A stretch of DNA of 64,000 bases, from positions 3,224,001 to 3,288,000 of the forward strand of contig NZ_CP060418.1 of the NCBI RefSeq assembly GCF_014298075.1, written 5' to 3'. Below the pieces are notes generated by a model that was given only the letters and a program-made list of their open reading frames with translations, had not been told where the DNA came from and ran no database searches. Shown piece after piece: positions 2,181-20,623 of this stretch. The stretch comes from Enterobacter sp. JUb54 (GTDB lineage: Bacteria > Pseudomonadota > Gammaproteobacteria > Enterobacterales > Enterobacteriaceae). The number at the start of each line of letters is the position of its first letter. Position 1 is the stretch's first letter. Position numbers and translations under genes: made by a program.

Positions 2181-3215
2181 CTAACAGTCTGAGATCACTG
2201 ACTCTTTGCGCATAAATCCGCACGATTCACGGATCACCAGCGCGGGGGGCAGAATAATCCGTTTTGGCGGCTCATTATTGCCCTGAATACGGCTATACAA
2301 TAGCTCACCGGCTTTCCGACCAATCTCTTTTGCTGCCACCGAAACGGTCGTCAGGGCAGGCTGAACCAGAGCCGCCTCGGTAATATCGTCAAACCCCACC
2401 AGCGCAAAATCCCGACCCGGTTCACGCCCGGTTTTACGTAGCGCCTGCATCACACCAAGTGCCACAATATCCTGATAACAGACTGCGGCCGTTATCTCCG
2501 GATAGCGGGTCAGGAGCGCCTCGGCGACTTTCGCCCCATCAATCTGGCTGGCCTTAGCCGTGACAATCCACTCAGGATTAGGGGATATTCCGCTTTCCAG
2601 TAGCGTACTGGTGAAGCCACCAATACGTTGCGCCCGAGTACCTGAACTCAAGCTGCCACCGATAAAAGCAATATTCCGATGCTCCATTTTCAACAAGTGA
2701 GCGGTAGCCATTTGCGTGCCAAGAAAGTTATCGGTGCCGACAAAATCAAAATCCGGATCGCTGAGCGGACGTACCACCATAATGGCGGGAATATTGCGCC
2801 TTTTCAGGGCATCGAAAAATGAGGTCGGGGTTTCCCGCGCCGCGCACAACACCATGCCGCAGGCGTTGTTTCGCATGAGTGAGTCAACAAACTTCTGTTG
2901 TCGCTCGCCTGACTCTTCACTGTTTGCCAGGAACAGCAGCAGGTCGTGTCGCTCCATTTCATGACTTAAGCCCGCCGTCATCTCACCATAAAACGGGTTG
3001 GTAATATCATGCAGTAACAGTCCGACCTGATTGCTACTGCGATTCCGCAGGTTAGCGGCAGTCTGGTTGTAGACATATCCGGAATCATCCAGAGCTTTCA
3101 GCACCCGTTCACGCGTAGCTTGTGAAATCCGTCCTCGATTACGCAACACCATCGAAACGGTAGCCGTAGACACCCCTGCCCGTTCGGCCACCTGTGCCAG
3201 CGTTACTGTCGTCAT
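2181..3215 (-). CDS. LacI-family transcriptional regulator of the PTS/isomerase block
   Basis: This is a 344-residue LacI/GalR-type repressor. The helix-turn-helix and hinge helix occupy about residues 1-60 (VTLAQVAERAGVSTATVSMV, then NQTAANLRNRSS). A periplasmic-binding-protein-like effector domain starts at VGLLLHDITNPFYGEMTAGL and ends near residue 335. By pattern it resembles the MalI branch. Two ATGs are adjacent (3216-3218 and 3213-3215); the AGGAGG ribosome binding site leaves a sensible spacer only for the second, so 3215 was chosen. It is divergent from the isomerase/PTS operon, and 18-bp palindromes in that gap, plus one copy before the cupin genes, are its likely operators. The effector is probably a sugar or sugar phosphate; this is inference. 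Confidence 0.93.
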   Translation of the reverse strand: MTTVTLAQVAERAGVSTATVSMVLRNRGRISQATRERVLKALDDSGYVYNQTAANLRNRSSNQVGLLLHDITNPFYGEMTAGLSHEMERHDLLLFLANSEESGERQQKFVDSLMRNNACGMVLCAARETPTSFFDALKRRNIPAIMVVRPLSDPDFDFVGTDNFLGTQMATAHLLKMEHRNIAFIGGSLSSGTRAQRIGGFTSTLLESGISPNPEWIVTAKASQIDGAKVAEALLTRYPEITAAVCYQDIVALGVMQALRKTGREPGRDFALVGFDDITEAALVQPALTTVSVAAKEIGRKAGELLYSRIQGNNEPPKRIILPPALVIRESCGFMRKESVISDC

Positions 3216-3238
3216 CATGCCTCCTGTTCGTTCACTGA

Positions 3239-3256
3239 AGGTTAATCGAATAACCT
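3239..3256. promoter_or_regulatory. Putative LacI-family operator O1
   Basis: AGGTTAATCGAATAACCT is an 18-bp palindrome (16 of 18 bases symmetrical) with a central CG, as is usual for LacI-family operators. It lies 24 bp upstream of the regulator start, suggesting autoregulation. The same half-site recurs at 3361-3378 and 9140-9157. Confidence 0.7.
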
Positions 3257-3274
3257 AAAAAATGCATTATTCCC

Positions 3275-3290
3275 TGTGAGCACACTCACA
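3275..3290. promoter_or_regulatory. CRP-cAMP binding site between regulator and PTS operon
   Basis: TGTGAGCACACTCACA carries both CRP half-sites perfectly (TGTGA-N6-TCACA). It lies in the divergent intergenic region, 115 bp upstream of the isomerase/PTS operon start and 60 bp upstream of the regulator. It implies catabolite control of one or both units. Confidence 0.85.
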
Positions 3291-3329
3291 TTAAGACGCA
3301 TTTTAGCCCGCTGGTTGTGGATTATGGCG

Positions 3330-3346
3330 GGTTAATCGCGTTAACC
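3330..3346. promoter_or_regulatory. Operator-like palindrome with altered spacing
   Basis: GGTTAATCGCGTTAACC has the same GGTTAA/TTAACC arms as the three 18-bp operators, but the centre is one base longer. It could be a weaker auxiliary site or the site of another factor. Confidence 0.35.
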
Positions 3347-3360
3347 ATACTGTCAAAACA

Positions 3361-3378
3361 AGGTTAATCGATTAATCT
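3361..3378. promoter_or_regulatory. Putative LacI-family operator O2
   Basis: AGGTTAATCGATTAATCT lies 27 bp upstream of the isomerase/PTS operon start codon. It is the exact reverse complement of the site at 9140-9157 in front of the cupin genes. This identity is the main evidence for one regulon. Confidence 0.75.
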
Positions 3379-3404
3379 TTGTTTAGCCAATATGGAGACA
3401 AATA

Positions 3405-5150
3405 ATGCAAACGACCTATGATAAATTCCCTGATATAGCCATTCAGGGCTATGACGACCAGGCCTGGCAGGGTTGGGCCTCCATCAATACCGCACTTAAC
3501 GCCAGAACATCAACGTCCTCCAGAACCGTGCTGGTTGTGGACTGCTACCCAGGCGTGCGGATTGAGGAGCTGGAACAGCGCCTGTTGCCATCACTCAACG
3601 CTGCATTGACACTGAACGTCGAATCCGCCCGCCGCGATGAGCAAGCGTTACACGATCTCCTGGCGCGCAATCTTACCGATGACCGCGTCTTCGGCGTGCT
3701 GTCCTGCCATCACCTTGATGAGTTTTTTAATGCCGAAAAACTGCATCAGTTACGCCGCCAGGTTGACGCCGTAACGGAAGGCGTCATTGTGATCTATGGT
3801 CCTGGCGCCACGCTCGTTCACCCAGGAGACCTGCTGGTCTACGCTGATATGCCACGTTGGGAAATCCAACAACGGATGCGCCATGATGGCCTGGGAAACT
3901 GGGGGGCAGATAACCAGGACGAAGATATTCTCCGCCGCTATAAACGCGCCTTCTTTATTGAATGGCGCGTCTTCGACCGCCATAAAACGCCGTTGCTCAA
4001 ACGTACCGATTATCTGCTCGATACCACACAAAAAGATGCACCGACGCTAGTCAGCGGTGAAGCGCTGCGCGCTGGACTACAGCACACTACCGCCCGCCCG
4101 TTCCGGGTCGTCCCTTTCTTCGACCCTGGTGTCTGGGGCGGTCAGTGGATGAAACAGCAATTCGATCTCGATCCCTCCGCGCCCAATTACGCATGGTGTT
4201 TTGATTGCGTGCCCGAGGAAAACAGCCTGTTACTGCGTTTTGGTCAGGTGCGGATCGAGATCCCCTCACAAAACCTGGTATTACTCCACCCACGTGCGCT
4301 CCTTGGCGAGAAGGTCCACGCCCGGTTTGGCGCTGAGTTTCCTATTCGCTTCGATTTTCTGGATACCATCGGCGGTCAGAACCTCAGTTTCCAGGTTCAT
4401 CCGGTTACCGAGTACATCCAACAACAGTTCGGGATGCACTATACCCAGGATGAGAGCTATTACATCCTCGAAGCCGAGCCGGGAGCCGTGGTCTATTTGG
4501 GAACGCAAACGGGAATCAAACCGCAGGAGATGCTCGACGATCTACAGGCAGCCGGCCGTGGCGAAAAAGCGTTTGACGATCGGCGCTTCGTTAACCAAAT
4601 CCCGGCGCGTAAGCACGATCACTTCCTTATCCCTGCCGGTACGGTTCACTGTTCCGGAAGCGGCACAATGGTGCTCGAAATCAGCGCAACACCCTATATC
4701 TTCACCTTCAAACTCTGGGACTGGGGGCGTTTAGGCTTAGACGGTTTACCGCGCCCGGTGCATCTTGAGCATGGCGAACAGGTCATCGACTGGCAACGCG
4801 ATACGCAGTGGGTCAACGACAACCTGGTTAACCGCATTGAACCTATCACCGAAGGAGAAGGCTGGCGAGAGGAGCGGACGGGCATGCACGAACGTGAGTT
4901 TATCGAAACCCGTCGCCACTGGTTTACCGCACCGGTAACGCACCATACCAGGGGCGGCGTTAACGTATTGAACCTGATTGAAGGGGCGGAAGCTCTCGTC
5001 GACAGCCCTGACGGTGCCTTTGAGCACTTTATCGTCCACTACGCCGAGACGTTTATCATACCCGCCGCAGTAGGCGAGTATCGCATCTCTCCATCGGGGA
5101 AAGGCGCAGGACAGCAACTTGCCACCATCAAAGCCTGGGTAAGGGGATAA
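3405..5150 (+). CDS. Class I phosphomannose-isomerase-like protein with N-terminal kinase-like domain
   Basis: The 581-residue protein has two parts. Residues ~240-580 form a type I mannose-6-phosphate isomerase cupin: WGGQWM near 244, the metal-ligand motif FQVHP (Gln330, His332), DESYYIL (Glu350) and PAGTVHCSGSG (His415), the same Gln/His/Glu/His set as zinc PMIs. Residues ~1-230 look like a nucleoside/uridine-kinase-type P-loop fold, but the expected GxxxxGKS/T loop is replaced by VVDCYPGVRIEEL near 44-56, with no P-loop lysine, so phosphotransfer is doubtful. The gene is first in the operon, 4 bp before the PTS IIA gene, which argues for action on the phosphosugar the PTS delivers. True ManA enzymes are about 390 residues. 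The substrate is unknown. Confidence 0.85.
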   Translation: MQTTYDKFPDIAIQGYDDQAWQGWASINTALNARTSTSSRTVLVVDCYPGVRIEELEQRLLPSLNAALTLNVESARRDEQALHDLLARNLTDDRVFGVLSCHHLDEFFNAEKLHQLRRQVDAVTEGVIVIYGPGATLVHPGDLLVYADMPRWEIQQRMRHDGLGNWGADNQDEDILRRYKRAFFIEWRVFDRHKTPLLKRTDYLLDTTQKDAPTLVSGEALRAGLQHTTARPFRVVPFFDPGVWGGQWMKQQFDLDPSAPNYAWCFDCVPEENSLLLRFGQVRIEIPSQNLVLLHPRALLGEKVHARFGAEFPIRFDFLDTIGGQNLSFQVHPVTEYIQQQFGMHYTQDESYYILEAEPGAVVYLGTQTGIKPQEMLDDLQAAGRGEKAFDDRRFVNQIPARKHDHFLIPAGTVHCSGSGTMVLEISATPYIFTFKLWDWGRLGLDGLPRPVHLEHGEQVIDWQRDTQWVNDNLVNRIEPITEGEGWREERTGMHEREFIETRRHWFTAPVTHHTRGGVNVLNLIEGAEALVDSPDGAFEHFIVHYAETFIIPAAVGEYRISPSGKGAGQQLATIKAWVRG

Positions 5151-5154
5151 GCAA

Positions 5155-5583
5155 ATGATCAACATCATTGTTGCCAGCCACGGTCCGCTTGTCAACGCCC
5201 TGCTTGCCAGCGGGCGGATGGTTTATGGCGAATTACCGCATGTCTCTACCGTCACGCTCGACGAACAGGCGGGCATCGAAGGCTTTAAGCAGGACTTCGC
5301 CCGCACGCTGGGTGAAGTTGGTCAGCAGGCCGACGGCGTACTGGTGCTATGCGATATGCAAAGCGGTACGCCATGGAACGTCGCCTGCCTGCACGCATTT
5401 TCTTCCCAGACAACGCCTCCTGTCGCCGTACTGGCCGGGGTTAATTTCCCGATGCTGCTGCAGAGTGAAGACATTATCCACCTGACGGATGTTCACGCCG
5501 CTGCCTTACAGCTACTGGCGTTAACCGTACCCACCCTGATTAAAGCCACCCCGGTTTTAGCCATTCAGCCTGATGATTTTTAA
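5155..5583 (+). CDS. Mannose-family PTS enzyme IIA
   Basis: This 142-residue cytoplasmic domain protein accepts phosphate from HPr and passes it to IIB. The N-terminus reads IIVASHGPL, with His9 as the expected phosphorylation site. DMQSGTPWNVA corresponds to the conserved GGTPxN turn of the EIIA-man fold. It is a stand-alone IIA, as in sorbose- and N-acetylgalactosamine-type systems, rather than the IIAB fusion of ManX. It starts 4 bp after the isomerase-like gene and ends 12 bp before IIB. Confidence 0.93.
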   Translation: MINIIVASHGPLVNALLASGRMVYGELPHVSTVTLDEQAGIEGFKQDFARTLGEVGQQADGVLVLCDMQSGTPWNVACLHAFSSQTTPPVAVLAGVNFPMLLQSEDIIHLTDVHAAALQLLALTVPTLIKATPVLAIQPDDF

Positions 5584-5595
5584 AGGAAAACGCTT

Positions 5596-6090
5596 ATGAG
5601 TATCTCTTTTGTACGTATTGACGACCGGGTGATCCATGGGCAGCTCGTGACGCGCTGGGCCAAAGAGCTGCCCTGCGACGGTATCGTGGCAATTGACGAC
5701 GCTGTCGCGGCCGATCCGCTACTTTCGTCGGTGATGAAAGGCGCCGTGCAAGACATCAAAGTCTGGCTGTTCGACACCGCTACGGCCATTGAAAAACTGC
5801 CAAAAGTCATTGCCAGTGAGAAACGCTATTTCGTGATCGGCAAATCCCCGGTCACTTTACAGCGCCTGGAGGCGGCAGGGATCAGCCTGAAAAATGCCAA
5901 TGGCAAAATCAACGTTGGCCCAATGAGCGCCCGCGCGGATACCACCACCATTGGACCAAATCAGTCGGTGAATGCCGCTGAGGTCGCCGCCTTTGACTGG
6001 CTGGTACAGCACGGGCATCACGTTGAATTCCGTCTGGTTCCGGATGCCAGCTACTACAGCTGGCAGGACGCACGCCAGAAGCTGAAATAA
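5596..6090 (+). CDS. Mannose-family PTS enzyme IIB
   Basis: This 164-residue cytoplasmic IIB carries the family signature VRIDDRVIHGQLVTRW at residues 6-21, with His14 as the phosphohistidine. IIB of this family phosphorylates the sugar during transport through IIC/IID, normally at C6. A ribosome binding site AAAGGAAAA lies 7 bp upstream. The gene is between IIA and IIC in one compact operon. Confidence 0.94.
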   Translation: MSISFVRIDDRVIHGQLVTRWAKELPCDGIVAIDDAVAADPLLSSVMKGAVQDIKVWLFDTATAIEKLPKVIASEKRYFVIGKSPVTLQRLEAAGISLKNANGKINVGPMSARADTTTIGPNQSVNAAEVAAFDWLVQHGHHVEFRLVPDASYYSWQDARQKLK

Positions 6091-6100
6091 GGAGCGGATG

Positions 6101-6898
6101 ATGATTATCGAAGCTACGTTGATTGGCATTCTTTGTTATCTGGGGGCCCTCAGCAGTCCCTGGCTTCTAGGTCTGACCGGCGGCTGGTATCTGATTACCC
6201 GACCGCTGGTGTCCGGCATGCTGGTCGGGCTGATTCTGGGCGACCTGAAGACCGGGATCATGATAGGCGTTGCGGTCCAGGCGGTTTATATCGCGATGGT
6301 GACGCCGGGCGGTTCAATGCCCGCGGACCTCAACTTCGTCGCCTATCCGGCAATTGCGTTAGGTATTCTGTCAGGTAAAGGGCCGGAGGTCGCGGTAGCT
6401 CTGGCTGCCACTATCGGTATCGCCGGCACGATTTTGTTCAATGCGATGATGGTGCTGAACTCCTTCTGGAATCACCGGGCCGACGTGGCGCTGGAGCGAG
6501 GCGACGATCGCGGTATTTATCTGAACAGCGCCATCTGGCCCCAGGTCACGAACTTTGTTTTACGCTTCGTGCCTACGTTTATTGCCGTCTATTTCGGCGC
6601 ACAGTACATCAGCGGCTTTATGGACAGTTTGCCAAAGATCATTCTGTCGACGATGAACGTCCTGGGCGGCATCCTGCCTGCGGTGGGGATCGCAATACTG
6701 CTCAAACAGATCATCAAAAACTACACCATGCTGATCTATTTTCTCGTCGGTTTCGTCTGCATCGTCTTTTTAAAACTCAATATGGTCGCACTGGTGATCG
6801 TGGGTTCGTTGCTGGCGCTTATCCATTACAACTACAAACCGGAGCCGCAGCAAAACGCAGGCACAGCACCGGTCGTCGATGATGAGGATGAATTCTGA
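6101..6898 (+). CDS. Mannose-family PTS enzyme IIC (membrane)
   Basis: This 265-residue polytopic membrane protein is related to SorA, AgaC and ManY. Strongly hydrophobic stretches start at residue 3 and recur to about 250, and the family features GDLKTGIMIGVAVQAVYI and TPGGSMPADLNF are clear. IIC forms most of the sugar pathway together with IID. ATG codons occur at 6098 and 6101; the GGAG at 6091-6094 is better spaced for 6101. The C-terminal tail is short and acidic (DDEDEF). The stop overlaps the IID start by one base. Confidence 0.93.
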   Translation: MIIEATLIGILCYLGALSSPWLLGLTGGWYLITRPLVSGMLVGLILGDLKTGIMIGVAVQAVYIAMVTPGGSMPADLNFVAYPAIALGILSGKGPEVAVALAATIGIAGTILFNAMMVLNSFWNHRADVALERGDDRGIYLNSAIWPQVTNFVLRFVPTFIAVYFGAQYISGFMDSLPKIILSTMNVLGGILPAVGIAILLKQIIKNYTMLIYFLVGFVCIVFLKLNMVALVIVGSLLALIHYNYKPEPQQNAGTAPVVDDEDEF

Positions 6899-7716
6899 TG
6901 GAAGACCGTACCCTGACCCGGAAAGATCTGCGCCGTTGCTGGCGAGCGTGGATGATGCACAACCTCTCGTCCATGAGCTTTGAGCGCCTGGAATCCTTCG
7001 GCTTCTGCCTGAGCATGCTGCCGGTGGCGAAAAAACTTTACCCGGATACCGCTGAGCGTACTGAAATGCTGCGCCGCCACGCTTCGTTCTATAACACTGA
7101 ACCGCAAATCGGCGCGATTGTTAACGGTATGGTGCTGGGGCTAGAGGAGAAAAAAGCCAACGGTGATCCCATCGACGGTGAAACGATAAATACCCTGAAA
7201 GTCGGTCTGATGGGGCCGATCGCCGGGATCGGCGACTCGATGATCCCAGGCATGCTAATCCCCATCTTATTGAGTATTGGTATGGCGCTTGCGGCCGGCG
7301 GCAGTATTCTTGGGCCGCTATTTTATACCATCGCCTGGCTGGCTATTATTCTGCCGGGCTCGTGGTTCCTGTTTTTGAAAGGTTACAAAATGGGCTCCGG
7401 CTCGGTAGAAATGCTGGTCAGCAGCAAATCGGCCCGCCTGCGCGAAGCCTTGTCGCTACTGGGGGTTTTCGTGATGGGCGGCGTGGCGGCAAGCTACGTA
7501 AAGCTCGGCACCGGGCTGGAGTTTATTACGAAAGATGGCGTTAATATCCACGTCCAGCAAATGCTGGATGGTATTTTCCCGCAGTTACTGCCTCTTGTCG
7601 TGGTGCTGGGAACCTGGTATTTGATGGCCAAACGCGGCGTTTCGCCAGTGAAAGCCATGATCATGCTGCTGGTGCTGGCTGCGGCAGGCGTCGCCAGCGG
7701 TTTCTTTGCCGGTTAA
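6898..7716 (+). CDS. Mannose-family PTS enzyme IID (membrane)
   Basis: This 272-residue IID has a soluble N-terminal half with LTRKDLRRCWRAW, FYNTEP and NGMVLGLEE, then the IID hallmark LMGPIAGIGDS and three or four C-terminal membrane segments. IID exists only in the mannose family of PTS and is needed for transport. It is the last gene of the operon and is followed by a strong terminator at 7735-7759. There is no catabolic gene after it. Confidence 0.94.
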   Translation: MEDRTLTRKDLRRCWRAWMMHNLSSMSFERLESFGFCLSMLPVAKKLYPDTAERTEMLRRHASFYNTEPQIGAIVNGMVLGLEEKKANGDPIDGETINTLKVGLMGPIAGIGDSMIPGMLIPILLSIGMALAAGGSILGPLFYTIAWLAIILPGSWFLFLKGYKMGSGSVEMLVSSKSARLREALSLLGVFVMGGVAASYVKLGTGLEFITKDGVNIHVQQMLDGIFPQLLPLVVVLGTWYLMAKRGVSPVKAMIMLLVLAAAGVASGFFAG

Positions 7717-7734
7717 CATGCCTGAATAAAGCTG

Positions 7735-7759
7735 ACCGGGGCATTACGCCCCGGTTTTC
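7735..7759 (+). terminator. Rho-independent terminator of the PTS operon
   Basis: An ACCGGGGC / GCCCCGGT stem with a 5-base loop is followed by TTTTC on the plus strand. It lies 18 bp past the IID stop and directly abuts the end of the convergent cupin gene. Confidence 0.85.
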
Positions 7760-8542
7760 TTATGGATGGAAGTTGTGCCACAGCTCCGCCGTTTTATCCG
7801 GGCGGGAGATAAACTGAAAGCGCGCTGGGTCATCGATAAACTGCTGATAAATCGGATCGGAAGTTAGCCCAAATTCAGTGTACTGTCGGGGAGTGATCGC
7901 CTGTAATCGTCCTGCAACGTAATGCGGATTGTGCTGCCAGACCACGTGCTTATCTTGCAATAACGGGTACCATGCCAGCCCCTTACGCGCTCGAACAGCC
8001 TGATACTCAAAACCATATTCACGGTCGCACCAGGCACCGAAAGTGAGTGGAACATCCGGGTTAGCCGATATCGTGGCGTGCCCCCATCCTGGTGGCACCA
8101 GCACTTTTTCTCCTGGATTAGCAATCACGGCAAAGCAACGACCGGGATCGTCCTCTACGTACTCCTGCATATAGATAATTGCGCTCCCTTGCCAGATCTC
8201 ATAGAGTTCTGGCGGCGACCAACCACTGTGCTGGCTAATACGATGGATATGCCCCTGGCTGCGAATCGGCTCATCTCCTAAACGTCCGGCGGCATAGGTC
8301 ACTACGCCAAACAGCAACATTCGTTTTTGTAGCTCTTCACGATCCTGCATCCGCGCAACGTCCATGGCGATTGCATAAACATCTTGCGGTCCGTCGCAAT
8401 GCGGGTCGCGCAGCGAAGCACGGATTTGTTCGAGGTGACGGATCTCCGGCATCGGGCCGGTCACATCCTCACCATAGCTGAAACCCAGCGGCTGATGATG
8501 AATCGTCATATCCAGACCATAATCGCGGACAGAATTAGCCAT
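7760..8542 (-). CDS. Cupin-type phosphoglucose-isomerase family protein (long form)
   Basis: This 260-residue single-cupin protein belongs to the family containing archaeal metal-dependent glucose-6-phosphate isomerase. The core motif reads QGHIHRISQHSGWSPPELYE, giving His98, His100 and Glu112, and PPGWGHATIS supplies His155. These are the expected four metal ligands. The His-to-Glu spacing is longer than in the neighbouring short form, and both N- and C-terminal extensions exceed the ~190-residue archaeal enzyme, so it is probably a different subfamily or substrate. A strong AGGAGGTG site precedes the ATG, and the start overlaps the upstream cupin gene by 8 bp, suggesting translational coupling. 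Confidence 0.82.
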   Translation of the reverse strand: MANSVRDYGLDMTIHHQPLGFSYGEDVTGPMPEIRHLEQIRASLRDPHCDGPQDVYAIAMDVARMQDREELQKRMLLFGVVTYAAGRLGDEPIRSQGHIHRISQHSGWSPPELYEIWQGSAIIYMQEYVEDDPGRCFAVIANPGEKVLVPPGWGHATISANPDVPLTFGAWCDREYGFEYQAVRARKGLAWYPLLQDKHVVWQHNPHYVAGRLQAITPRQYTEFGLTSDPIYQQFIDDPARFQFISRPDKTAELWHNFHP

Positions 8543-9098
8543 TCTGCACCTCCTTTGCCTGGATCTGCTGATGTTCCTCGATAATCCGCAACGCGAAGCC
8601 GTTTACCAGCGATGCGTAGTCATGGCCTGCAACGCCGGGCCAGACGGCCAACGCAGAGAGCGTATCCTCACCGGTATTAATCAACCGGTGGGCGGTAAAT
8701 CCGGGAATAATATGCACGGACCCGACAGAAACCTTTTCGAGCCGCGCCTGTCCTTGCTCATTTTGCTGCAACAGCAAACCGCTACCGCGCAGGCCAAAGT
8801 AAACTTCGCCTTGCTCACGGCGGGCATGGTAATGCCCACGGGTCATAAAATACTCGTTGCCAACTTTCCCCGGATACAGATGGGTAACGCCGGTATACAG
8901 CTCCCCTTCGTCTGAAGGGGTATCAAACATTTCTACATCATAAACAACCTGCTCTCCCGCCATAGCCTGACGAGCCTGCTCATCGGCAAAAATACCGGCA
9001 AGATCGATGATGCGCGTTGACTTACCTAATAACGGACCATTGGAAAGTGCTCCACTGGCCCACGCCACCTGCGGTGGCTGGATAAAAGAAGGATTCAT
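8535..9098 (-). CDS. Archaeal-type cupin glucose-6-phosphate isomerase
   Basis: This 187-residue protein matches the archaeal (Thermococcales-type) cupin phosphoglucose isomerase in length and layout. It has YFMTRGHYHARREQGEVYFG with metal ligands His89, His91 and Glu98, then PGFTAHRLINTG with His137, then AVWPGVAGHDY before the C-terminal helix. The ligand positions are within one residue of those of the Pyrococcus enzyme (88, 90, 97, 136). The enzyme would interconvert an aldose 6-phosphate and fructose 6-phosphate, or a related pair. It is first in a two-gene unit with its own putative operator at 9140-9157. A standard enterobacterium already has an unrelated Pgi, so a special role is likely. 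Confidence 0.86.
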   Translation of the reverse strand: MNPSFIQPPQVAWASGALSNGPLLGKSTRIIDLAGIFADEQARQAMAGEQVVYDVEMFDTPSDEGELYTGVTHLYPGKVGNEYFMTRGHYHARREQGEVYFGLRGSGLLLQQNEQGQARLEKVSVGSVHIIPGFTAHRLINTGEDTLSALAVWPGVAGHDYASLVNGFALRIIEEHQQIQAKEVQNG

Positions 9099-9139
9099 GT
9101 TTGTCTCCGGCCCAAGGAGAACAGCAGAATCAGATTAGC

Positions 9140-9157
9140 AGATTAATCGATTAACCT
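9140..9157. promoter_or_regulatory. Putative LacI-family operator O3 before the cupin pair
   Basis: AGATTAATCGATTAACCT is the exact reverse complement of the operator at 3361-3378. It lies 41 bp upstream of the cupin gene start at 9098. A weak promoter could read TTCAAG, 17 bp, CTAATC on the reverse strand, which would put the operator in the spacer, but this promoter reading is uncertain. Confidence 0.75.
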
Positions 9158-9213: not shown

Positions 9214-9843
9214 CTATTCCAGCGTGTAGTTAACGATTAACTGCCCTTTTTTCATTTTCACCTGCAGTATCGTCACCTTGCCGAGCTCAGCCAGGCTGGC
9301 GACGTGCGTGCCGCCGCAGGGATAGCTCAGCATGTCGCCGAACCCGACCTTGCGCAGGCCATCGGCAAACGAGATCTGACGCGGTAAATGCTCTGTCTGC
9401 CAGGCTTCAACCTGCGCCAGCAACGCGCTGGCTTCGGGCAGCGACGCCTGTGCGCCGGCTTTGAAGGTGATCCGCCCTTCGCCAGGCCAATGATGAGCCT
9501 TGATGGGCTGCCAGCCAAAGCGTTCACCGGCCTGACCAATCAGATGCCCGGCAGAATGTAACCGGGCGTGCAGGTGCCTTTCTTCAGCATTCACCCGCAT
9601 GGTGACTTCCTCCAGGGGCAGCGGCTGCGAAACAATATGCACAATGCTATCGCCGCGTGCGCTAACGCTCTCTACGGGAATATCGCCGATCCAGCCGCGA
9701 TCGGCCGGTTGTCCGCCGCCCTGCGGGTGAAACAGGGTTTGATCCAGGGTGATGGCGTAGCGACCATCGGCTTCGGGCAGGCAGCCCAGTATCCGTGCGC
9801 GCCCTTCGGTCGCATCGCTGGTGTAATAAAGACGTTCAGTCAT
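9214..9843 (-). CDS. Alanyl-tRNA editing protein, AlaX type
   Basis: This 209-residue free-standing homologue of the AlaRS editing domain hydrolyses mischarged Ser- or Gly-tRNA(Ala). HPQGGGQPADRG, the HSAGH part of HARLHSAGHLIG and CGGTHV supply the HxxxH and CxxxH zinc ligands typical of AlaX. The N-terminal beta-barrel portion before HPQGGGQ is present, as in the medium-length AlaX-M class. It is divergent from a LysR gene (92-bp gap). No aminoacyl-tRNA synthetase domain is attached. It belongs to the accessory block between dapB and rihC, and its link to the sugar genes, if any, is not evident. Confidence 0.88.
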   Translation of the reverse strand: MTERLYYTSDATEGRARILGCLPEADGRYAITLDQTLFHPQGGGQPADRGWIGDIPVESVSARGDSIVHIVSQPLPLEEVTMRVNAEERHLHARLHSAGHLIGQAGERFGWQPIKAHHWPGEGRITFKAGAQASLPEASALLAQVEAWQTEHLPRQISFADGLRKVGFGDMLSYPCGGTHVASLAELGKVTILQVKMKKGQLIVNYTLE

Positions 9844-9935
9844 GGTTGTCCTCCTCTCTGTCAGGACAGTATATTGATATTACGCATGACGATAATCCCG
9901 TCATCCATCAATGGACCTTTGCCTGATGAGCACAA

Positions 9936-10838
9936 ATGAATCTTAATTTACTGCCCGACCTTGCCCTGTTTGTGCAGATTGTCGACCACGGCAGCTTCTC
10001 CGCCGTCGCCCGGCTGAACGGGGTCACGCCATCGGCGATCAGCCGCAGCGTCTCGCGGCTTGAACATGAGATGGGTTGCAAACTGCTGCAGCGCAGTACG
10101 CGTAAATTACGCCTGAGCGATGCCGGGGAATCGGTCTATAGCCACGCGCTGGAGATGCTGGCGTCGGCCCGCCAGGCGATGGACTCCGCCAGCAGTACCC
10201 AGGAGGTAGCGCAGGGCAAACTCACGCTCAGCGTGCCTAAAGCCGTCGGTCGCTTCGTGATTCATCCGCTGATGACCGAGTTTCTCGATCGCTATCCGGA
10301 AGTGGATGTCTGCCTGCGGCTCGAAGACCGCTATCTGGATTTGATTGACGATGGTATCGATCTGGCGCTGCGCATTACCCATACGCCTTCTCCGGGGCTG
10401 CACGGCAAGCCGTTAATGCCGGTGACGCACATTATCTGCGCCACTCCGGACTACTTATGCCAGCACGGCACGCCGCAGACGCCAGCTGACCTGCGTCACC
10501 ACAGCTGTATCAGCCTCGGCGAAACTCCGGCCGACTCACGCTGGAAATTCCGTCAGGCGGGCAAAACGGACACCATTGAGACTCACGGACGCTACGCCGC
10601 CAACCATACCGCGGTACGCCTGGACGCGGTGAAGCAACATTTGGGGATCGGCAGCCTGCCGCTGTTTACCGCCCGCGAGGCGCTGGAGCGCGGGGAGATC
10701 GTGCAGGTACTGGCGCAATGGGAGTTTATCAGCAGCTATAGCGGCCAGCTGTGGCTGCTGTGGTCGGGCAATAAGCATATGCCCGCCAGAATGCGGGCCA
10801 TGATCGATTACCTGAGCGAGAAGATTTACCGTCGCTAG
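9936..10838 (+). CDS. LysR-family transcriptional regulator
   Basis: This 300-residue LTTR has its N-terminal winged helix at about residues 8-65 (FVQIVDHGSFSAVARLNGVT, PSAISRSVSRLEHEMG). An effector-binding domain begins near residue 90 (GKLTLSVPKAVGRFVIHPL) and contains DGIDLALRI. It resembles the large CrgA/AaeR-like group. It is divergent from alaX across 92 bp, the usual arrangement for a regulator and its target, and convergent with rihC, with only 6 bp between the ends. The target and ligand are not known. Confidence 0.9.
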   Translation: MNLNLLPDLALFVQIVDHGSFSAVARLNGVTPSAISRSVSRLEHEMGCKLLQRSTRKLRLSDAGESVYSHALEMLASARQAMDSASSTQEVAQGKLTLSVPKAVGRFVIHPLMTEFLDRYPEVDVCLRLEDRYLDLIDDGIDLALRITHTPSPGLHGKPLMPVTHIICATPDYLCQHGTPQTPADLRHHSCISLGETPADSRWKFRQAGKTDTIETHGRYAANHTAVRLDAVKQHLGIGSLPLFTAREALERGEIVQVLAQWEFISSYSGQLWLLWSGNKHMPARMRAMIDYLSEKIYRR

Positions 10839-20451: not shown

Positions 20452-20623
20452 TTTTACTCTCTCTATTAAGGCTAATTCATCGATTAAACTATTCTAGTCG
20501 CCATAATATTTCGAAAAAATAAGATTATTATTGCTGAATAGATCGGTTTTAACGATCTAATCGTAGCACATCATCAAAGCGCAACACGGAAATCGGGCAT
20601 CACTCAGGTAGCGTGAGTCAGAA

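Follow-up and report, generated by a model that had tools for sequence, protein, structure and literature searches.

A predicted LacI regulon of Enterobacter sp. JUb54 that joins a mannose-family phosphotransferase system to three cupin-fold isomerase-type proteins

Which sugar enters the cell through a mannose-family phosphotransferase system (PTS) that is encoded beside three different isomerase-type genes, and do these genes form one system? The question is raised by a block of eight open reading frames (ORFs) in Enterobacter sp. JUb54, located in a 64,000-nucleotide stretch of contig NZ_CP060418.1 (positions 3,224,001 to 3,288,000). This whole stretch is called the window, and coordinates are those of the window. 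The block consists of the gene for a LacI-family repressor and two convergent operons. The plus-strand operon, Fus-IIA-IIB-IIC-IID, encodes a relative of type I phosphomannose isomerase (PMI), here called Fus, and the four PTS components. The minus-strand operon, CupA-CupB, encodes two cupins related to phosphoglucose isomerase (PGI). Sequence analyses suggest, with a probability of about 0.5, that the block is an inducible LacI regulon that takes one hexose, or a few related hexoses, to fructose 6-phosphate via isomerases. The existence of the block, noticed in an earlier reading of the window, is confirmed by the ORFs and by Pfam; the interpretation given then, import of one unusual hexose and its isomerization to fructose 6-phosphate, is partly supported.

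One predicted operator for two operons

All eight ORFs of the original prediction are open. Seven of their products exceed a Pfam cut-off (LacI, EIIA-man, PTSIIB_sorb, EII-Sor, EIID-AGA, and GPI (PF06560) twice), Fus lies below, and none of the eight reaches an NCBIfam cut-off. From Fus to IID the genes are separated by gaps of 4, 12 and 7 bp, followed by a 1-bp overlap. CupA and CupB overlap by 8 bp, and their operon converges on IID.

A near-palindromic 16-bp pattern with a central CG, GGTTAATCGATTAAYC, starts at 3240 (near the LacI start), 3362 (before Fus) and 9141 (before CupA), and is the predicted LacI operator at these target genes. In the whole 5.3-Mb genome, matches with at most two mismatches are found at these three sites only, and no regulon member elsewhere in the genome is detected at this threshold; the reversed pattern, used as a control, gives one match per strand. 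When three mismatches are allowed, the window holds seven matches; its shuffled versions average 0.62, and in 100 of them the count of seven is never reached. The seven are the three near-palindromic sites read on both strands and one match with three mismatches at 20474. With the NCBIfam model MalI the LacI protein scores 308.4 of 310 bits, below the cut-off.

At least 582 stretches encode Fus relatives. Among the best 80 of them, 27 Enterobacterales loci (L013-L037, L045, L047) combine LacI, Fus and the mannose-family PTS; 22 of the 27 have both CupA and CupB, and the same gene order is kept in 22, in some with insertions. All 75 operator sites detected in these 27 loci (571,278 bases) lie inside the block, 73 of them in the 260 bp that precede Fus or CupA and two between the LacI and GH38 genes of L020, whereas each of 20 letter-shuffled control patterns gives 0 to 2 matches. 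The operator is present at CupA in 21 of the 22 enteric loci with CupA; L045 has no site there at up to two mismatches. Because the operator is common to both units and is limited to the block in this genome and in its relatives, the PTS and cupin units are read as one predicted regulon under one LacI regulator, as had been proposed from the window alone. The cupins carry the repressor's predicted operator and co-occur elsewhere with the PTS, which rules out that the two units are unrelated neighbors.

Of 20 genomes of the genus, eight encode a full-length Fus (86-100% identity); CupB (84-100% identity) is found in the same eight, which carry both units. More distant genus matches at about 25% (G002, G005, G020) belong to another gene. 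CupB is rare: within the order 8 of 394 genomes carry it at E 1e-40, and it is found in 3/296, 2/378, 1/199 and 2/250 genomes of four other groups, the centre genome being included in each. A search with CupB only, outside the order, yields four non-centre genomes, all four with Fus within 5 kb.

The earlier statement that E. coli lacks these genes agrees with a collection of 5,426 complete genomes, in which neither megablast with the 6977-bp block nor blastn with the Fus gene finds a match. One record named Escherichia coli (L016) carries a related locus and is perhaps misnamed.

Isomerase-type proteins and their genomic contexts

The PTS is complete, as originally described, with all four components recognized by Pfam and with separate IIA and IIB. 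In the translations, read by eye, IIA has His9 in ASHG and IIB has the VIHGQ histidine in DDRVIHGQ; we take both to be phosphorylatable histidine motifs. All NCBIfam models for named substrate subfamilies are below cut-off, and therefore no PTS substrate can be named.

Fus scores 14.5 bits against PF20511 (cut-off 22), and it matches the mannose-6-phosphate isomerase 1qwr with E 2e-10 by phmmer and E 6e-14 by profile. Q330, H332, E350 and H415, presumably metal-site ligands, are invariant among 37 aligned homologs. The N-terminal 225 residues match no Pfam family above cut-off and are conserved, like the remainder of Fus, across the same 37 homologs. Fus is thus not a fusion of two known domains, and the earlier label of an isomerase-like fusion has to be given up. 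The N-terminal region (window 3405-4079) is kept across phyla, with 24 invariant columns in 24 rows. The best solved-structure match of its profile, complex I subunit NDUFA10 (E 0.93), is not significant.

CupA matches the solved phosphoglucose isomerase 1j3p with E 4e-39. Its residues H89, H91, E98, H137, H159 and Y161, which we take to be counterparts of the P. furiosus PGI site, are invariant in 20 rows, and the GH.Y motif is kept. In CupB the metal-site residues H98, H100, E112 and H155 are invariant in 19 rows. However, CupB has GFEY in place of GHDY, and a hand alignment places V81 and C172 where P. furiosus PGI has T71 and Y152 (numbering and roles as we assume them). Because these positions differ, CupB is filed as a PF06560 relative and not as a PGI. 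The conserved metal-site residues of Fus, CupA and CupB agree with the earlier description of three cupin-fold isomerase-type proteins.

The genomic contexts of Fus were compared in 66 other loci: 53 of the best 80, eight from a plasmid collection (L094-L101; L093 left out) and L157-L161, of which four were obtained via CupB and one via kinship (L042 and L161 are counted among the 66). A mannosidase of family GH38, GH92, GH76 or GH125 lies within 10 kb in 29 (tblastn), a cupin gene is present in 19, and 20 have neither. ROK kinases are found in 20 of the 27 mannosidase-bearing loci that lack cupins. Among the 19 cupin loci, 10 have both CupA and CupB and nine have one of the pair, and ROK is present in 11, MFS in seven and a mannose-family IIC in four. 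An obligate CupA/CupB heteromer is ruled out, since CupA occurs alone in six loci and CupB alone in three. Mannosidase and cupin occur together in only two loci (L078, L089) against 8.3 expected (Fisher p = 0.0007, in a test that ignores kinship and on a locus set that is not a random sample); p is 0.0027 without L157-L161 and 0.0031 when Paenibacillaceae are also omitted. Seven plasmid-collection stretches were examined with their annotation: a ROK family protein lies nearby in five, GH92, GH38, GH76 or GH125 is annotated in three, and the Listeria stretch has neither.

Since Fus loci often adjoin alpha-mannosidases and ROK kinases, mannose 6-phosphate isomerase is the likeliest activity to assign to Fus. 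Fus sisters at 79-81% identity sit in different contexts, L081 with cupins versus L095 with GH92, and L043 with CupA versus L038 and L039 with GH38. Such close sisters in cupin and mannosidase loci argue for a single Fus activity, to which the cupins would be a repeated add-on. A quick Fus tree was built from 77 rows: the window, the 66 loci and 10 of the 27 enteric ones. On this tree the cupin label requires 15 changes, or at least nine going by starred branches, so cupins were repeatedly gained or lost beside Fus; even so the label is clustered, since none of 500 shuffles (mean 22.7) gives so few changes. L100, L101, L159 and L161 have long branches.

The cupin module recurs with other uptake systems. 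CupA, ROK, Fus, CupB and MFS occur in varying order in L051, L078, L158 and L160; the same module is found without a detected MFS in L050 and L099, without a detected ROK in L081, and without either in L062 and L080. A mannose-family PTS accompanies CupB-CupA-Fus in L085 and Fus-CupB in L159. Where CupB is missing, in Vibrio (L041) and Aeromonas (L043), an AGE-family epimerase accompanies the module. An Enterobacteriaceae metagenome-assembled genome (L042) has Fus with another PTS and GH38, and a genome of the same family (G022, L161) has Fus with a mannose-family PTS and an AGE-family gene; both lack cupins. Plasmid records searched with CupB give two full-length close matches: one in Persicobacter, where Fus lies next to it, and one in P. 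distasonis, where the locus has no Fus. The latter locus (L102:8500-15894) reads CupA-ROK-CupB-MFS-cellulase-like (PF12876)-GH2 and adjoins SusC/D, and its GH2 falls into one cluster with the GH2 proteins of L071, L081 and L087. GH2 is present in 3 of 19 cupin Fus loci versus 0 of 27 mannosidase-only loci. The L081 GH2 has no good solved-enzyme match, the best being beta-D-galactofuranosidase 2 (55 bits). The earlier remark that no kinase or glycosidase is present thus stands for the block in the window but not for its relatives, which carry ROK kinases, GH2 and GH38.

HAD-type phosphatase genes of one cluster lie beside the cupin modules at L051:19169-20086 and L085:12686-13522 (the assignment is from a Pfam run on the L051 copy only); as a guess, they may relieve sugar-phosphate stress.

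A candidate pathway and its alternatives

We infer the reactions of the block, their order and substrate, and its repression and induction as follows. When no inducer is present, the repressor would hold off both convergent operons from the three operators, the inducer being the sugar or its phosphate. Upon induction, IIA-IIB-IIC-IID would import an aldohexose and phosphorylate it at O6. Fus, as a protein of the mannose-6-phosphate-isomerase type, would carry out the last step to fructose 6-phosphate, and CupA, with its PGI-like site, and CupB, with its diverged site, may supply one or two extra aldose-ketose or epimerization steps. The cupins would widen the range: a hexose different from the mannose that alpha-mannosides release could enter the route at the level of either mannose 6-phosphate or fructose 6-phosphate.

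Among the intermediates of this putative route, mannose 6-phosphate has the best support. The mannosidases at 29 of the 66 other Fus loci point to it, as do the GH38 and MngA-like PTS genes inside 3 of the 27 enteric blocks (L018, L020, L022). A rare substrate, as originally proposed, is a reasonable guess, and a hexose other than mannose is favored by the cupins' avoidance of mannosidase loci and by two cupin loci in which a canonical ManA gene neighbors Fus. In Enterobacter ENT03 (L020:6383-9992) the MngA-like stretch and GH38 lie between LacI and Fus, under the operator; the MngA-like stretch matches just 28% of a full-length relative, and GH38 aligns over 99%.

Several observations weigh against the proposed pathway. 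The P. distasonis cupins have no Fus in their locus and so can work without an adjacent Fus. Canonical ManA adjoins Fus in Priestia (L051) and Clostridiaceae (L085), which would make a mannose 6-phosphate role of Fus redundant there. These two observations would agree with an alternative where another hexose is the substrate of Fus or of the cupins. Five of the 27 enteric loci (L017, L027, L030, L031, L033) have PTS and Fus and no cupins within the examined stretch, so the cupins are separable; L048, L049 and L161, which lack both cupins and mannosidases, also pair Fus with a mannose-family PTS. Outside the block the host encodes two more type I PMIs and two more mannose-family IIC proteins, so that a plain mannose system would be redundant. 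The sampling of the 66 loci and their kinship, mentioned above, also belong here.

The alternative that survives best is a second inducible PTS for D-mannose (and glucose), in which Fus converts mannose 6-phosphate to fructose 6-phosphate and the cupins just speed anomer interconversion or the equilibration of glucose 6-phosphate, fructose 6-phosphate and mannose 6-phosphate, with no new substrate. It fits the mannosidase-rich context of Fus, the cupin-free enteric loci that retain LacI, operator, PTS and Fus, and the phosphoglucose isomerase identity of CupA's solved relatives. The available part of a review describes cupin PGIs as specific for glucose 6-phosphate and fructose 6-phosphate (PMC12965863), and mannose regulons of LacI and GntR type are predicted elsewhere (PMC4052901, PMC3878776). 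The host's other PMI and IIC genes speak against it, as do the scarcity of cupins in mannosidase loci, the diverged site of CupB and the operator kept at the cupin operon in 21 of 22 loci. It is a real possibility, although we would not expect it to be correct.

Slightly more tentative is the idea of an as yet undescribed isomerase-only module composed of CupA, Fus and CupB, to which ManA may be added. Its three or four metal-dependent cupin-fold enzymes would work in series behind interchangeable front ends and convert a rare hexose 6-phosphate into fructose 6-phosphate, the part of CupB lying beyond C1/C2. The front ends found are a mannose-family PTS or an MFS porter with a ROK kinase, and complete copies of the module were detected in members of five phyla (Pseudomonadota, Bacillota, Bacteroidota, Chlorobiota and Spirochaetota).

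A more specific proposal, that a rare aldohexose (altrose, allose or talose) passes through three isomerases in series, with CupB shifting the carbonyl between C2 and C3 or epimerizing C3 and Fus acting on a 6-phosphate other than mannose 6-phosphate, is unlikely. It would account for the ManA beside Fus in L051 and L085, for the P. distasonis locus, which has no annotated mannosidase, for the one-cluster GH2 genes of four cupin loci and their absence from the mannosidase-only Fus loci, and for a distant cupin beside hxlB on a Salmonella plasmid. However, the close Fus sisters in cupin and mannosidase loci argue for one activity, and no gene names such a sugar. A non-catabolic role of CupA and CupB for the PTS sugar (sensing, detoxification of side products or backup of the central PGI) that merely shares the inducer would agree with the five cupin-free enteric loci, but is very improbable given the conserved metal-site residues and the recurrence of the cupins across phyla with Fus and a sugar kinase or PTS.

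The distant cupin belongs to a second PTS and cupin set (L104:4800-8200 and L103:4261-7996), which comprises a ptsG-like gene, a CupB-like cupin (24-25% to CupB), hxlB, annotated as 6-phospho-3-hexuloisomerase, and hxlA. The set is carried chromosomally by 132 of the 5,426 E. coli genomes and also occurs in plasmid records of Salmonella; our guess is that it moves a hexose via 3-hexulose 6-phosphate.

Surroundings of the block and comparison with known systems

The features of the block are collected in Table 1. The block lies between dapB and rihC, as first described, but rihC is not its direct neighbor: an AlaX-like editing-domain gene and a LysR gene (window 9214-10838) stand between CupA and rihC. 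Twelve genus genomes lack the block. In G004 rihC adjoins dapB; G018 (L183) has dapB, AlaX, LysR in two separated pieces, and rihC; the stretches taken from the other 10 show neither rihC nor the block. The block is rejected as recent foreign DNA because the GC content of its genes (0.54-0.56) matches that of the window (0.556). On the minus strand, at the 3' side of dapB, are Rfam matches to DapZ (RF02551, 1100-1178) and the ES003 small RNA (RF02750, 773-825).

Table 1. Features of the block, in window coordinates.
Feature	Position	Strand	Basis
LacI-family repressor, 345 aa	2181..3218	-	PF00532/PF00356 above cut-off; same-place orthologs in 27 enteric loci
Predicted operator GGTTAATCGAATAACC, proximal to LacI gene	3240..3255		1 mismatch to GGTTAATCGATTAAYC; kept in most relatives
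CRP-type site TGTGAGCACACTCACA, perfect	3275..3290		sole match without mismatch in window; consensus as we assume it
Predicted operator GGTTAATCGATTAATC, 27 bp 5' of Fus	3362..3377		0 mismatches; conserved in relatives
Fus, type I PMI relative, 581 aa	3405..5150	+	residues ~229-458 align with 1qwr; N-terminal domain without Pfam family
Mannose-family PTS IIA	5155..5583	+	PF03610, E 1e-15
Mannose-family PTS IIB	5596..6090	+	PF03830, E 3e-36
Mannose-family PTS IIC	6098..6898	+	PF03609, E 6e-66
Mannose-family PTS IID	6898..7716	+	PF03613, E 9e-88
Terminator-like hairpin between convergent operons	7734..7756	both	9 pairs; consensus match only
CupB, diverged PGI-family cupin, 260 aa	7760..8542	-	PF06560, E 9e-17
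CupA, cupin PGI relative, 187 aa	8535..9098	-	PF06560, E 1e-25
Predicted operator 5' of CupA	9141..9156		0 mismatches on - strand; in 21/22 enteric CupA loci

CRP-type matches with up to two mismatches number 11 in the window against a shuffle mean of 20.7, that is, fewer than in the shuffles. Terminator-like sites number 10 in the stretch against 6.3 expected, and the promoter scan finds 4 sites against 4.9 expected.

The proteins carry no annotation beyond 'class I mannose-6-phosphate isomerase' and 'glucose-6-phosphate isomerase family protein', and the proposed regulon turns these labels into a testable pathway. It would sharpen a widely used annotation and give the N-terminal domain of Fus a first functional setting. 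If the sugar is not mannose, the block would represent a new isomerase-only catabolic route and CupB a new cupin activity.

Among the titles and abstracts listed by literature searches there is no characterized operon of known substrate that matches the block, and the available parts of PMC4052901, PMC3878776, PMC12965863, PMC6627849 and PMC8378251 do not describe it. Of these, as far as they were available, PMC4052901 covers LacI regulons including a ManR group for mannose and mannosides, and PMC6627849 and PMC8378251 treat cupin PGI and lyxose isomerase. The ManR regulon of B. thetaiotaomicron, in the part of PMC3878776 available, is likewise predicted and would serve to take up mannose and convert it into fructose 6-phosphate, but it has a GntR-family regulator, SusC/D and mannosidases.

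The mngR-mngA-mngB genes of E. coli form the 2-O-alpha-mannosylglycerate system, in which a mannoside is imported by a PTS and leads to mannose 6-phosphate. The three loci named above have MngA-like and GH38 genes within the enteric block; the L022 relatives are far below the NCBIfam equivalog cut-offs (GH38, 634 of 1138 bits; MngA-like, 427 of 763). The block in the window has a mannose-family PTS and cupins in their place and is rejected as a mannosylglycerate system, since it has neither MngA nor MngB. Its PTS has the complete IIA, IIB, IIC and IID set of the ManXYZ, Aga and Sor systems, but with IIA and IIB separate and below all NCBIfam cut-offs. CupA and CupB share PF06560 and the metal-site residues with cupin phosphoglucose isomerases such as P. 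furiosus PGI; unlike these, they are two paralogs in a predicted sugar regulon, one with an altered GHDY. Fus, although below the Pfam cut-off, aligns with the core of type I phosphomannose isomerase (ManA, 1qwr) and keeps its four invariant residues, and differs from it in carrying an extra N-terminal domain of 225 residues.

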